Shown: positions 57,022-62,011 of the stretch, piece by piece | Numbering within the stretch: position 1 is the first letter of the stretch | Layout of the letters: each line of letters begins with the position of its first letter | Translations under genes and position numbers: made by a program | Notes under the pieces: generated by a model | Database searches by the model: none | What the model was told of the DNA's origin: nothing | Seen by the model: only the letters and a program-made list of their open reading frames with translations | Source of the DNA: Natrononativus amylolyticus | GTDB taxonomy: Archaea; Halobacteriota; Halobacteria; Halobacteriales; Natrialbaceae | NCBI RefSeq assembly: GCF_024362525.1 | Contig: NZ_CP101458.1 | Coordinates: forward strand, 2,232,001 to 2,296,000 | Reading direction: 5' to 3' | Length of the DNA: 64,000 nt

Positions 57022-58206
57022 TTACCGGATGACGTCGACGCCGTTCTGGCGCTCGAGTTCGTCGCGGCCGCCGTCGCTCTGTGCGCCGTAGGCCGTCTGT
57101 GACTGTACGTTCTGGCTGGCGTCGAAGTCCGCGTCGCTCAGCCCCTCGAGGCTGGCGCGGGATTTGTCGGCCTGCTTCTGGGTCGAGGGGCCGAGCACCT
57201 GTGCGCTCTGGACGCCGGTCATGATCGCCATGACCCGGACCTTCCCCTTGTAGTTCTCCTGGATGCGGGCACCCCAGATGACGTTCGCGCTGGCCTCGAG
57301 TCGTTCCGTGATGTTGTCCGCGATCCCCTCGGCCTCTTTGAGCGTGAGGTCGGGACCGCCGGTGATGTGGACCAGTCCGCCGCTCGCGCCGCGGTAGTCG
57401 ACGTCGAGCAACGGGTGGTTCATCGCGTCCCGGACGACCTCCTCGGTCTTGTTCTTGTCCTGGGTCTCCCCGACGAGCATCACCGCGACGCCGCCCTGGT
57501 TCATGATCGTGGACATGTCCGCGTAGTCCAGGTTGATCAGCGAGGGCTGGGTAATCGTCTCGGAGATCCCCTTGACGGTTTCGGCGATGATCTGGTCCAT
57601 CACCGAGAACGCCTTGCCAATCGGTAGGTTCGGGACGTAATCCAGCAACCGGTTGTTGTCCAGCACGATGATCGAGTCGGCCTGCTCGCGCAGTTTCTCT
57701 AAGCCCTCCTCGGCTTTCACCGTGCGGGCGCGCTCGACGTTGAACGGCGTCGAGACCATGCCGACCACGATCGCACCCTGTTCTTTCGCGATCTTGGCGG
57801 CGACGGGAGCCGCACCGGTGCCGGTGCCGCCGCCCATGCCCGCAGTCACGAAGACGAGGTCGGCTTCGCCGAGGACCTCCTTGATCGTGCTCTGGGCCAT
57901 CTCGGTCGCGCGCTCGCCCATCGACGGATCGCCGCCGGCACCCAGACCGTTCGTGAGCGACTTGCCCACGAGGATCTTCGTGTCGGCCTCGATCATCTTG
58001 AGGTGTTGCTTGTCGGTGTTGATCGCGATCGTGTCGGCGCCGTCAACGCCGATGTTGTACAGCCGATTGATCGTGTTGTTTCCGGCGCCGCCGGCACCGA
58101 TGATGACGATCCGGGGGTCCCCGAACTCGTCGCCGTCCATCGATGCATCCATCTCGCGGGCCTCCTCTTCGGCGTTTTCGAGGGCCTCCTGTACGATATC
58201 CTGCAT
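57022..58206 (-). CDS. ftsZ2: Cell division protein FtsZ2
   Basis: 394-aa tubulin-fold GTPase that forms the division ring. Nucleotide motifs [15 protein letters not shown] and the signature [13 protein letters not shown]7 loop NLDYADM, and the C-terminal peptide GVDVIR. Assigned to the FtsZ2 group rather than FtsZ1 because of the [14 protein letters not shown]-terminus, the DVIR end and the gene order with cdrS directly upstream (2 nt between cdrS stop and ftsZ2 ATG), as described for Halobacterium and Haloferax. Confidence 0.93.
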
Positions 58207-58208
58207 TA

Positions 58209-58385
58209 TTACACCTTCGCCCAGGTCCGTTTACCGGCCTGATCGTGGCGGGTGTCCTGTTCGTTGATCATCTCTCGAACGGCCGATCGAATCGCCTCGC
58301 TCCGGTTTGGGTACTCGCCGGTTTCGACCAGCTGTTCGACCTCCTCGATCTGCTGTTTCGGAATTCGCAGTGTCACACGCTCCAT
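58209..58385 (-). CDS. cdrS: CdrS, ribbon-helix-helix cell-division regulator
   Basis: 58-aa RHH transcription factor ([20 protein letters not shown]..., with [17 protein letters not shown] as the helix pair). CdrS is encoded directly ahead of ftsZ2 and controls its expression in Halobacterium and Haloferax. Here the stop TAA is followed after 2 nt by the ftsZ2 ATG. The start at 58385 is the only ATG upstream of the beta-strand. Upstream lies an array of GTCTTAC inverted repeats (58404-58511). Confidence 0.9.
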
Positions 58386-58403
58386 TATTGTATTCCCCGT
58401 GGA

Positions 58404-58511
58404 GTAAGACGGTGCGCGCCCCTGTCAGACGCGGTGCGTCTTACACCCAAATCCCGCTTACGTAAGCGGGTTTTCCGGTTCAATCCGGCGGGTGTAAGAC
58501 AACCGTCTTAC
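58404..58511. promoter_or_regulatory. Nested inverted repeats (GTAAGAC/GTCTTAC array) before cdrS-ftsZ2
   Basis: Outer pair GTAAGACGGT (58404-58413) with ACCGTCTTAC (58502-58511); inner pair GTCTTACACCC (58438-58448) with GGGTGTAAGAC (58490-58500). Inside are the perfect 18-nt palindrome CCCGCTTACGTAAGCGGG (58453-58470) and CCGG-TTCAAT-CCGG (58475-58488). A further GTCTTAC is at 58569-58575. A TATA-like CTATATC (minus strand, about 58514-58520) would place transcription start within the array. Likely operator of an RHH regulator, CdrL and/or CdrS. Confidence 0.7.
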
Positions 58512-58597
58512 GCGATATAGCCAACTTTGTCATACATAATAAAGGTTTCGTCGGACGCGAGTATCCGTGTCTTACGACAGTCTCGAGACCTGAACAA

Positions 58598-59170
58598 TCA
58601 TCGACGGTCGGACTCGAGGACGTCGGCTGCAGGGGTTCGGCGGCCGCAGCTGGGACAGAACGCCCAGTCGGACCGGACCTCGTCCCCGCAGTCACAGAAC
58701 AGTCGCCGGGACGCTTTCTCACCGCAGTTCGGACAGTACACGTGATCGTCGTCGACGTGTTCGCCACACTGACCGCACGCCGACTCCGGTCGAGCCGTCG
58801 GCTCGTCGGGTTCCGTCGGGTCGCGGTCGGCCTCGGCGCGTGGCTGGCCGCGTCGCTCGGGCGACGGCGTCGTAGCCTGTCCGTCGACGCCCTCGAGCGA
58901 CACGGTCACGTTGACGTCCTGTGGACCGTGTCGCGGCCGATCGACGGCGTGACGCTCCGCGAGCACCGCATCGACGCGCTCGCGAACGAGGTCGTCGATG
59001 CTTCGAGAGCCGACCGGCCGACGGTCGCCCGTCGACGGGCGACGCGTCGGGTCGCGGTGACTCTCGAGGTACGTGCGGAGCGCCTCGCGCATCACCTCGC
59101 TCTTCGAGGCGTCGAACGCCTCGAGTTCGGCGACGAGGTCGTCGTCCGCACGGAACGTTATTTTGCTCAT
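58598..59170 (-). CDS. cdrL: CdrL, ribbon-helix-helix plus zinc-ribbon regulator
   Basis: 190-aa protein: N-terminal RHH domain (MSKITFRADDDLVAELEAFDASKSEVMREALRTYL, 1-36), a disordered charged middle, and two C-terminal zinc ribbons (CGQCGEHVDDDHVYCPNCG and CDCGDEVRSDWAFCPSCG). Domain order and position just upstream of cdrS-ftsZ2 match CdrL, which regulates the cdrS promoter. ATG 59170 is the family start; an in-frame ATG at 59218 adds a non-RHH extension. Confidence 0.88.
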   Translation of the reverse strand: MSKITFRADDDLVAELEAFDASKSEVMREALRTYLESHRDPTRRPSTGDRRPVGSRSIDDLVRERVDAVLAERHAVDRPRHGPQDVNVTVSLEGVDGQATTPSPERRGQPRAEADRDPTEPDEPTARPESACGQCGEHVDDDHVYCPNCGEKASRRLFCDCGDEVRSDWAFCPSCGRRTPAADVLESDRR

Positions 59171-59306: not shown

Positions 59307-59380
59307 CCGCCCTTAGCTCAGCCTGGTAGAGCAGTCGACTGTAGATCGACTTGTCCCCCGTTCAAATCGGGGAGGGCGGA
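59307..59380 (+). tRNA. tRNA-Tyr (anticodon GTA)
   Basis: Complete cloverleaf of 74 nt: acceptor stem CCGCCCT with AGGGCGG, D-arm GCTC...GAGC, anticodon stem GTCGA with TCGAC and anticodon GTA at 59341-59343, T-arm CCCCG-TTCAAAT-CGGGG, discriminator A. No intron. A TATA-like CCTTATG lies about 30-35 nt upstream. The adjacent downstream DNA has element-like gene content, and tRNA 3' ends are common integration sites. Confidence 0.95.
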
Positions 59381-59546
59381 CTTGGTTTTCAGCCGAAGCG
59401 TGGCAGTATCGGAAAGCTACGTTTTCGCCTGTTTCGTGCCCCGTATCGACTGATCTGCGATCCCCCAAACCACCCGAAAATGGTGAAGGGAACGGGACTC
59501 CGGTTGCACCCCCGCCACGTCTGCCGGATTTCGTAGCTGAAACGGG

Positions 59547-59798
59547 GTGGTCCGCGTGAACCTCGAGCAGTTGCTCGAGACGATCGACGTCGACGAACTC
59601 GAGCGGCGAATCCGCTCGCGCCCACAGCCCACGACGTCGCGAGAGTTCCGCTGTCCGATCTGCAACAGTCGTTGTACACGTCTTACAGACGGTCGATCAG
59701 AAGCCGGTCACTGGCGCGACTGTCCGCGTCGGCTGCGGCGCACGGGGACGTATCGGGCCGCGCCCATGCTCACTGATGGGGGTGAGGTGGACCAATGA
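59547..59798 (+). CDS. Small zinc-finger protein, first of an overlapping gene chain
   Basis: 83-aa protein. N-terminal helix (MVRVNLEQLLETIDVDELERRIRSR), then a putative zinc site CPICNSRC...GHWRDC. Starts at GTG 59547 or the in-frame GTG at 59556. The stop overlaps the next ATG by 4 nt (ATGA). Typical of small genes in haloarchaeal plasmids and integrated elements; function unknown. Confidence 0.65.
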   Translation: MVRVNLEQLLETIDVDELERRIRSRPQPTTSREFRCPICNSRCTRLTDGRSEAGHWRDCPRRLRRTGTYRAAPMLTDGGEVDQ

Positions 59799-60142
59799 GC
59801 GTTCGTGCTCGTTACAGCACAGAGCGACAATTATTGACCGAGAGGAGTTCCTTCACGGGGGATCACCAAGTTCTTCAGATTCCCATTGAGCGGCGAGCGC
59901 CTCAGCGAGTTCAGGAGGTCTGTGTTCGCTTAACAGATGCTGCTCGAGGCTTTTGTGAGGCTCTATCGGTTCCTGGCACAGTTCACAATAGATCGGGGAC
60001 TTGGTTGCCATATCCGAAATATGCCTTTAAACCAAAAAAGGATCTCGCCAGATTGAGTCTTCTCCGGTGCGTAACCGATGTTCTCACGACCAGCGGTGAG
60101 TGGTTGACGGGCGGGAGAATCGACCACGAGGTGGACCGATGA
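59795..60142 (+). CDS. Possible ORF of unknown function in the coupled chain
   Basis: 115 codons. It overlaps the preceding gene (ATGA) and the following one (ATGA), as expected for a real link in the chain. However, its middle is lower in GC with poor haloarchaeal codon bias, and it lies antisense to the C2H2 zinc-finger gene at 59853-60011. One reading is that a small gene has been inserted into, or has overprinted, this frame. No domain seen. Confidence 0.35.
   Translation: MSVRARYSTERQLLTERSSFTGDHQVLQIPIERRAPQRVQEVCVRLTDAARGFCEALSVPGTVHNRSGTWLPYPKYAFKPKKDLARLSLLRCVTDVLTTSGEWLTGGRIDHEVDR
59853..60011 (-). CDS. Small C2H2 zinc-finger protein
   Basis: 52-aa protein (MATKSPIYCELCQEPIEPHK...) with a classic finger pattern: Cys9, Cys12, then His25 and His30 (C-x2-C-x12-H-x4-H) in YCELCQEPIEPHKSLEQHLLSEH-type spacing (shown as positions). 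The rest is an acidic helix. An AT-rich promoter stretch with TTTAAA (60026-60031 on the plus strand) lies upstream. Such single-finger proteins are frequent in haloarchaea and their viruses; probably DNA- or protein-binding. Confidence 0.68.
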   Translation of the reverse strand: MATKSPIYCELCQEPIEPHKSLEQHLLSEHRPPELAEALAAQWESEELGDPP

Positions 60143-60276
60143 CGCGCGAGTTCGTCCGCGCGAGTCGGCTGTACCACGTTCCGAGTCGGACGCCCATCGC
60201 CCACCCGGCGACGCAGGCCGACGATGACGACGTTCGCCGTGCGCTCGAGGTCGTCTCGGGAGGTGAGTCGGCGTGA
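60139..60276 (+). CDS. 45-aa small protein
   Basis: MTREFVRASRLYHVPSRTPI... to VVSGGESA, 45 residues, rich in Asp near the end. Overlaps the upstream frame (ATGA) and the downstream GTG (GTGA), with good codon bias. No motif recognised. Confidence 0.5.
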   Translation: MTREFVRASRLYHVPSRTPIAHPATQADDDDVRRALEVVSGGESA

Positions 60277-60395
60277 GGCAGTGTCCGGTCTGCGACGACC
60301 ACAGCTCGCAGGTCTACCGCTGTAGCGAGTGCGGCGCTGATCTCGTCGGTCGCGGAAACGAGGACACCACTCCCGAATCGGGAGGCTCCCGATGA
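60273..60395 (+). CDS. 40-aa zinc-ribbon micro-protein
   Basis: MRQCPVCDDHSSQVYRCSECG..., two C-x2-C knuckles (Cys4/Cys7 and Cys17/Cys20) forming one zinc ribbon, followed by a flexible tail. GTG start overlapping the preceding stop; its TGA overlaps the ATG of the 539-aa gene. Too short for routine gene callers. Confidence 0.6.
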   Translation: MRQCPVCDDHSSQVYRCSECGADLVGRGNEDTTPESGGSR

Positions 60396-62011
60396 GTCAG
60401 CCGGAAACCACGCCCCACGAGGTCGAAGGCCGCTGGAAGTGGCCGAACTGGGGTCGCGGACCCTACGACGCACTCTCGTCGGTGATGCTCGGCGCGCCGT
60501 TCGAGGGTCATCTGGAGCTGAGTACCGACGTCGACGGCGAACCCTGGGTGTTCGAGGTCCGGTACAGCAAATCCGGTATCGCCCCGCGGCTGTCCGACGG
60601 GATCGACGCCGAACGGCTGTACGAGTGGGACATAGTGGGTCGCGGTCGCGGCCAGAAGAAAGCGTCCTACAACATCTCGCCGCGATTCGCCGGGATGCGT
60701 CACTACGAAACCGGCGACCCGCTACGGCTCCCGTGGGAGAACCAGGTGGGCGAGGTCGACGGCGTGGACGTCGAATACCACCTGAGTAACATCGAACCCG
60801 ATCGCGGCCTCAAGCTGCTGCCCGAGTTCTTCGTCGCGATCTTCGAACACGCGGGCGAGCGGATCAATTCGAACTACTTCCGCGAGGAACCCCACGAGGC
60901 GAGCGTGATGTGGGCGTACGAGCGGTACGTCCGGATGCTTCGGGAATGGGCGCGGAAGCTGTCGTCGTCGGGGGTACTCCACAAGGTGATGTTGTATCTC
61001 GCCGAGGAGGAGGGAGTGAAAGCGGAGCTGAAGATCGACAACGAGGAGGAGATCAACCACCAGAACCGGCTGGTTCTCAATCCCGAGTCGGCCTCGAGGC
61101 TCCTGCCCGGCCACACCTACGGCCGCAAACTCGAAGTGTATCTGCTGGCCGATCCGAACGCCGTGAGCAAGGATCATCCCTCGTACCACCCGAAGGTGGA
61201 GGTGCTGGTGAACAAGAAGATGAACGGCGGCGAGTCGTGGGCGTGGGCCGATCGCCACGAAGTCACCCGGCAGATCGAGGAGACGATCATGAACGCGCTG
61301 CACTGGGAGGACATTCCACTGTCGCCCGATGGCAGCGGCGTGTACGTTCCGGACGATCACTTCGATGCAGTGTCTCGAGACGACCCGGTCGAACTGTACG
61401 AGGACCCGACGCCGCGCCTCGAGGCGAAAGCCGACCACCTGCTGTTGACGACGCTGCGCGATATGGGCGAGACAGCGTGGGACGTCACCGAGACGGTCGC
61501 GACCGATGGCGGCGCCACCGTCGACGGCCTCGCCGAGCAGCTGGGGAAGCACCCGGCGACGATCTACCGGGCGATCTCCGACCTGGGCGAGATTTTCGAC
61601 CTCGAGGACGGCCAGCTATCGTTCCGGGTTCGGAAGTACCAGGAGGAACTTCGCGCGCTCGTCGAGTCGGCGGAGTACGCGATCGAGAGCTACGCCGATC
61701 GGATTCAGCACGTGATGGGCCTCGCCGATCACGTCGCGGAGTCGTCGCCGTTCCAGAAGTGGTTAGCGGAGAACGGGGCGGAGCTCGAGTTCGACCAGGA
61801 GGGGAACCCGAAGCGGTTGCGAATCGACACCATCCTGTCGATGCTGAAGGGCAACAGCTACGAGAGCGCCCGGAGAGTCGCCCAGGAAGCGATCGACGCC
61901 TGGCGACACTCGGGGAACGACGTGCTGCACTTCAGTGACGTGCAGATGGTCTGGCGGCAGCCTGGTGGCGGTCACGATAGCCGTCGGGTCGGGAAGCTGG
62001 CCACCTGGTAG
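60392..62011 (+). CDS. 539-aa winged-helix protein of an integrated element
   Basis: Soluble protein of an uncharacterised haloarchaeal family that I associate with integrated elements. The N-terminal 300 residues are beta/alpha without recognised motifs (WGRGPYDALSSVMLGAPFEGHLEL..., RINSNYFREEPHEASVMWAYERYVRM...). At about 370-415 lies a winged helix-turn-helix (TVDGLAEQLGKHPATIYRAISDLGE), then helices to the end. Might be the element's replication or regulatory protein; evidence is context only. Last of five coupled genes; a T-rich stretch (62036-62056) follows. Confidence 0.72.
   Translation: MSQPETTPHEVEGRWKWPNWGRGPYDALSSVMLGAPFEGHLELSTDVDGEPWVFEVRYSKSGIAPRLSDGIDAERLYEWDIVGRGRGQKKASYNISPRFAGMRHYETGDPLRLPWENQVGEVDGVDVEYHLSNIEPDRGLKLLPEFFVAIFEHAGERINSNYFREEPHEASVMWAYERYVRMLREWARKLSSSGVLHKVMLYLAEEEGVKAELKIDNEEEINHQNRLVLNPESASRLLPGHTYGRKLEVYLLADPNAVSKDHPSYHPKVEVLVNKKMNGGESWAWADRHEVTRQIEETIMNALHWEDIPLSPDGSGVYVPDDHFDAVSRDDPVELYEDPTPRLEAKADHLLLTTLRDMGETAWDVTETVATDGGATVDGLAEQLGKHPATIYRAISDLGEIFDLEDGQLSFRVRKYQEELRALVESAEYAIESYADRIQHVMGLADHVAESSPFQKWLAENGAELEFDQEGNPKRLRIDTILSMLKGNSYESARRVAQEAIDAWRHSGNDVLHFSDVQMVWRQPGGGHDSRRVGKLATW

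Follow-up and report, generated by a model that had tools for sequence, protein, structure and literature searches.

A heptad array upstream of cdrS-ftsZ2 in haloarchaea as a probable CdrL operator and source of the stems of a predicted folded leader RNA

The window analysed here, a stretch of 64,000 nucleotides of the Natrononativus amylolyticus genome (contig NZ_CP101458.1, positions 2,232,001 to 2,296,000), contains the genes cdrL, cdrS and ftsZ2 and, in the intergenic region between cdrL and cdrS, 5' of the cdrS-ftsZ2 operon, an array of the heptads GTAAGAC and GTCTTAC. This operon includes essential cell-division control. The genes and their order are those of the haloarchaeal cdrL-cdrS-ftsZ2 locus described previously, for which the available published text reports that CdrL binds only upstream of cdrS-ftsZ2 and that CdrS regulates division genes (PMC7439475, PMC8406309). 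The features of the locus are listed below.

57022-58206, (-): ftsZ2, from Pfam/NCBIfam profile matches
58209-58385, (-): cdrS, RHH regulator (NCBIfam TransRegCdrSHalo, 120.5 bits, cut-off 100)
58386-58513, (-): predicted structured 5' leader of the cdrS-ftsZ2 mRNA, a three-way junction of P1, P2 and P3, from folding
58404-58410, (-): heptad D, GTCTTAC, 25 nt 5' of the cdrS start codon; P1 3' strand (58404-58413 with 58502-58511)
58415-58433, (-): predicted RNA stem-loop P3, between C and D, from folding
58438-58444, (-): heptad C, GTAAGAC; P2 3' strand, extended pairing 58438-58448 with 58490-58500
58454-58471, (-): 18-nt palindrome CCCGCTTACGTAAGCGGG, apical hairpin within P2 in N. amylolyticus, elsewhere variable hairpins
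58494-58500, (-): heptad B, GTCTTAC; with A forms the genome-unique 18-bp dyad GTAAGAC-N4-GTCTTAC; P2 5' strand
58505-58511, (-): heptad A, GTAAGAC, on the predicted start site; P1 5' strand
58513, (-): predicted transcription start, G, from the pyrimidine-purine initiator at A-3/A-2
58537-58543, (-): predicted TATA box TTTATTA of the cdrS-ftsZ2 promoter, from the TATA-like spacing to heptad A
58569-58575, (-): upstream heptad, GTAAGAC in the sense of cdrS, 64 nt upstream of heptad A and outside the predicted transcript
58598-59170, (-): cdrL, with RHH, CdrL_M and double zinc ribbon, from Pfam/NCBIfam profile matches

The five exact heptads stand at 58404 (-), 58438 (+), 58494 (-), 58505 (+) and 58569 (+), and are named here in the sense of cdrS: A (58511-58505), B (58500-58494), C (58444-58438), D (58410-58404) and the upstream heptad (58575-58569). 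A preliminary description of this DNA had reported these five sites, two nested perfect inverted repeats of 11 nt (58438-58448 and 58490-58500) and 10 nt (58404-58413 and 58502-58511), and the 18-nt palindrome, and all were confirmed. In 200 first-order Markov simulations of the window, an equal span never held more than two heptads. The palindrome, which had been taken as the centre of the array, proved to be species-specific, a perfect palindrome of at least 14 nt occurring at this place in just three of 183 leaders.

Conservation of the array and its uniqueness per genome were computed across haloarchaea. The same heptad order precedes cdrS in 50 relatives. A set of 183 distinct sequences from upstream of cdrS contains an exact heptad A in 182 cases, B in 180, D in 175 and C in 118; the comparison of relatives proposed in the preliminary description thus found the half-sites kept in essentially all haloarchaea. 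In the first 118 sequences the gap between heptads A and B is 4 nt in 97 cases and 5 nt in 18. Two loci, of which one belongs to Haloquadratum walsbyi J07HQW1, combine exact A and D with a degenerate half-site B (GTATGAC). Of 116 haloarchaeal genomes searched by pattern, 114 have exactly one copy of the dyad GTAAGAC-N2-6-GTCTTAC, which lies at cdrS in every case where its location could be checked, and the remaining two genomes retain degenerate forms. The reversed pattern, used as a control, matched in one of the same 116 genomes, and the dyad itself occurred in one of 124 genomes sampled outside the class. The next best N4-dyad matches in the N. amylolyticus genome carry two mismatches.

In 157 of 180 loci heptad A is preceded by TTTAT or TTTAA, starting 32 or 33 nt upstream of it, and positions A-3/A-2 are pyrimidine-purine in nearly all loci. 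Because of this TATA-like spacing and initiator, transcription is predicted to start at A-2, which would place the dyad at about +3 to +20 and give the leader a median length of 122 nt. For cdrS of H. volcanii the transcription start has been mapped according to the available text, which also reports a TATA box and, giving no length, a 5' UTR (PMC8406309). An extra exact heptad is found upstream of the promoter, within A-100 to A-28, in 146/183 loci, compared with 0/366 control windows; it lies at A-52 in the (-) orientation in 84 loci and at A-65 in the (+) orientation in 25. Variants at A-52 differ at the middle base (GTCATAC, GTCGTAC), which would suit a protein site whose centre tolerates change. 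The upstream heptad is exact in 145 of 176 loci with CdrL, versus one of seven loci without it (Fisher 0.0003, uncorrected for kinship).

In proteins of the RHH family the ribbon contacts the bases, and RHH operators, such as those of CopG, Arc, MetJ, the omega repressor and NikR, are built from short repeated half-sites. The present locus resembles them in that an RHH protein is encoded beside repeated short half-sites with dyad centres about one helical turn apart, and differs in that the operator would cover the start site and fall within the leader, its half-sites doubling as RNA stems. CdrL ChIP-seq in H. salinarum gave, according to the available text, a sole reproducible site upstream of cdrS-ftsZ2 (PMC7439475, data GEO GSE148065), which parallels the single dyad of nearly every haloarchaeal genome. 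The operator reading of the heptads for CdrL is well supported, and CdrL would be the protein that reads them. The heptads are thus proposed here as a candidate CdrL recognition sequence; neither such a sequence nor a structured leader was found in the available text of the published accounts of the locus (PMC7439475, PMC8406309). The published cdrL deletion strain had second-site mutations and was excluded from further analysis there. CdrL lies next to cdrS in 176 of 183 loci; it was not found by sequence search in six well-covered genomes, nor beside cdrS in one further genome. At these seven loci A and D are exact in all and B in six, and CdrL therefore cannot be the sole reason for which the heptads are maintained.

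The preliminary description had offered the heptads as a strong candidate for the CdrL/CdrS motif and for a possible role in autoregulated timing of division; as to the motif, CdrL agrees with the single published ChIP site and the single dyad per genome, and CdrS fits less well. CdrS ChIP-seq in H. volcanii yielded 18 sites, and the list in the available text lacks the cdrS promoter (PMC8406309). Two published CdrS targets, ftsZ1 and hisB, carry GTCNGAC-type dyads and not GTAAGAC-N4-GTCTTAC: the sequence GTCAGAC-N4-GTCTGAC is present at ftsZ1 in Haloferax relatives and one Natrialbaceae genome, and also in the Haloferax hisB intergenic region. With up to three mismatches, a GTCNGAC-N4-GTCNGAC-like dyad occurs 63-76 nt before ftsZ1, upstream of the promoter, in 26 of 28 haloarchaeal genomes, and shuffled sequences almost never match; the ftsZ1 dyad is absent from the genome of N. 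amylolyticus and from one other, and the dacZ promoters of Haloferax contain no clear full dyad. From these occurrences, GTCNGAC-N4-GTCNGAC is probably the CdrS motif. It and the dyad of the cdrS promoter are sisters, with the same N4 spacing and one base per half-site different; the ribbons of CdrL and CdrS likewise resemble one another, which is in keeping with CdrL as the reader of the cdrS dyad. CdrS is less likely to be the reader of the heptads because its ftsZ1 target bears the sister dyad. CdrS-type GTCNGAC half-sites were also sought within the cdrS array itself, where their frequency (12/183) was not above that in control windows (84/915), and this candidate was dropped.

As RNA, the predicted leader of the window folds with a minimum free energy of -62.2 kcal/mol (z -5.9), and none of 200 shuffled sequences was equally stable. 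The junction consists of P1, formed by A:D, P2, formed by B:C with variable extensions, and P3, which lies between C and D. Pairing probabilities averaged over 177 leaders were 0.92 for A:D, 0.87 for B with downstream sequence and 0.06 for A:B. When, in a subset of 39 leaders, the heptads were kept and the sequence between them shuffled, the probability of A:D fell from 0.93 to 0.18 and that of B with downstream sequence from 0.94 to 0.25, and that of A:B rose from 0.05 to 0.68; the junction is thus not forced by the heptads, since shuffling between them switches the fold to an A:B hairpin. The bases beside B and C, which flank P2, pair better with their own partners than with partners swapped between genomes (0/2000), a comparison which, like the shuffle and Fisher values given here, is not an independent test since sequences of the same genus are related. 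RNAalifold, applied to four lineages separately, returned the same junction with 5, 13, 13 and 12 pairs changed on both sides, and covariation within the heptads was nil. In a split-half test restricted to variable pairs, held-out sequences were 68-81 % paired versus at most 47-60 % with slid partners; all of 300 shuffles were beaten in three lineages, and in the Natrialbaceae the result was weak, 9/300 reaching the observed value. A conserved fold with compensatory changes is therefore present, more weakly so on held-out data in this one lineage. Cross-family alignment by MAFFT followed by RNAalifold gave the A:B hairpin only, because the variable stems are unalignable between families, and was rejected. 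A search of Rfam gave no match to the leader, the tRNA alone matching at E<=1.

The idea, touched on only briefly in the preliminary description, that the segment could form a three-way junction as RNA is supported by the fold, the shuffling and the covariation within lineages, and seems as real as the operator. The nested inverted repeats are more readily accounted for by stems P1 and P2 of a conserved leader RNA. Literature searched for haloarchaeal leader structure contained none on the cdrS-ftsZ2 leader. Post-transcriptional control of the cdrS-ftsZ2 operon has been inferred in H. salinarum from mRNA and ribosome data (PMC8303175), which suggests a plausible job for the leader. Structured leaders were judged not typical of haloarchaea in work on H. 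volcanii, where 72 % of transcripts lack a leader (PMC4983044); a conserved folded leader is predicted here in archaea thought to be sparing of them. Riboswitch-like 5' leaders are likewise long and folded and stand in front of operons with apparent post-transcriptional control, but here there is no Rfam match, no ligand domain is known and the host group is mostly leaderless.

Our working hypothesis, which we consider reasonably probable, is that the array is a dual-coded element in which the same heptads serve as a CdrL operator in DNA and as the stems of the folded leader in RNA. On DNA, CdrL would occupy one site next to the BRE/TATA element and the 18-bp inverted dyad, with half-site centres 11 bp apart, over the start; thus straddling the core promoter, bound CdrL would set transcription of cdrS-ftsZ2. 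Binding at the start-site dyad would suggest repression and binding at the upstream site activation, and both are possible. In the transcript, A:D, B:C and the third stem would give the leader the shape of the three-way junction. This junction would stop about 18 nt short of the start codon, with the GGGGA-AUG segment still open, and the leader would most likely tune mRNA stability or translation.

Other arrangements of the same parts must be weighed against this. Were the heptads CdrL sites in DNA only, their complementarity in RNA would be a by-product of inverted half-sites, and the almost invariant heptad sequence, the heptad upstream of the promoter and the single ChIP site of CdrL would all be as expected. 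We nevertheless regard this as unlikely, as selection for the junction acts on the sequence lying between the heptads, which when shuffled yields the A:B fold, pairing runs past the heptads with compensatory changes, and among 36 leaders without the C heptad B still pairs downstream in 27 and A:D is retained in 30. A variant of the dual-coded reading, less likely again, has a two-state leader made by the four mutually complementary heptads: the 5' A:B hairpin would arise early in transcription and then give way to A:D and B:C, and on the DNA the heptads would be bound by CdrL, either by itself or as a heterodimer with CdrS. Such a heterodimer would explain the asymmetric half-site GTC-N-TAC, with its CdrS-like GTC half and different GTA half. 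Operator occupancy and leader folding would in this variant be evolutionarily locked, which would explain heptads frozen across the class.

Conversely, the heptads could be an RNA element only, the stems being needed by an RNA-binding factor or the ribosome and CdrL binding elsewhere in the intergenic region. The strong leader fold and the persistence of A, B and D where CdrL is not detectable would fit, yet a heptad that lies upstream of the TATA box and cannot be transcribed is kept in most loci, preferentially with CdrL, and the dyad has the spacing of the CdrS-type dyad, which at ftsZ1 is upstream of the promoter; we find this explanation decidedly unlikely. Least probable of all, in our estimation, is autoregulation by CdrS, with CdrS in place of CdrL as the reader of the dyad in front of its operon. 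CdrS is present in every locus, even those without CdrL; the ribbons of the two proteins are nearly identical (R-V-T-L-R in CdrS, where 182 of 183 N-termini are identical, and mostly K-I/V-T-F-R, that is K-x-T-x-R, in CdrL), the sister dyads differ by one base per half-site, and deletion of cdrS in H. salinarum is reported in the available text to lower ftsZ2 1.3-2.2 fold (PMC7439475). Against this stand the cdrS promoter missing from the CdrS sites listed for H. volcanii in the available text (PMC8406309), one GTAAGAC dyad per genome versus 18 CdrS sites, and the GTCNGAC dyads of ftsZ1 and hisB.

The dual-coded reading, with its candidate operator, its likely sister motif for CdrS and its predicted leader, makes the control of FtsZ2 levels in haloarchaea directly testable. 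RHH proteins act likewise in archaeal division or segregation in the Sulfolobales, where the cell-cycle proteins aCcr1 and SegB are known; in the available text, leader RNA is not described for either, and the SegB motif TCTAGASTCTAGA is unrelated in sequence to the heptads (PMC12284271). The match of CdrL to the aCcr1 model is weak (23.8 bits, below the cut-off of 60).

A tRNA-Tyr gene is located at 59307-59381 of the window, immediately upstream of cdrL, and beyond it (59547-62011) are small ORFs and a DUF7845 protein (60392-62011), possibly a tRNA-integrated element. In the six genomes in which the sequence search did not find CdrL, cdrS-ftsZ2 is kept, and tRNA-Tyr is nearby in the four scanned. 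One other locus has an additional RHH gene immediately upstream of cdrL. Haloferacaceae archaeon XH8 (CP132292.1) has two near-identical cdrS loci, small indels apart, near both ends of the chromosome record, and this duplicate is probably an assembly overlap of contig ends.
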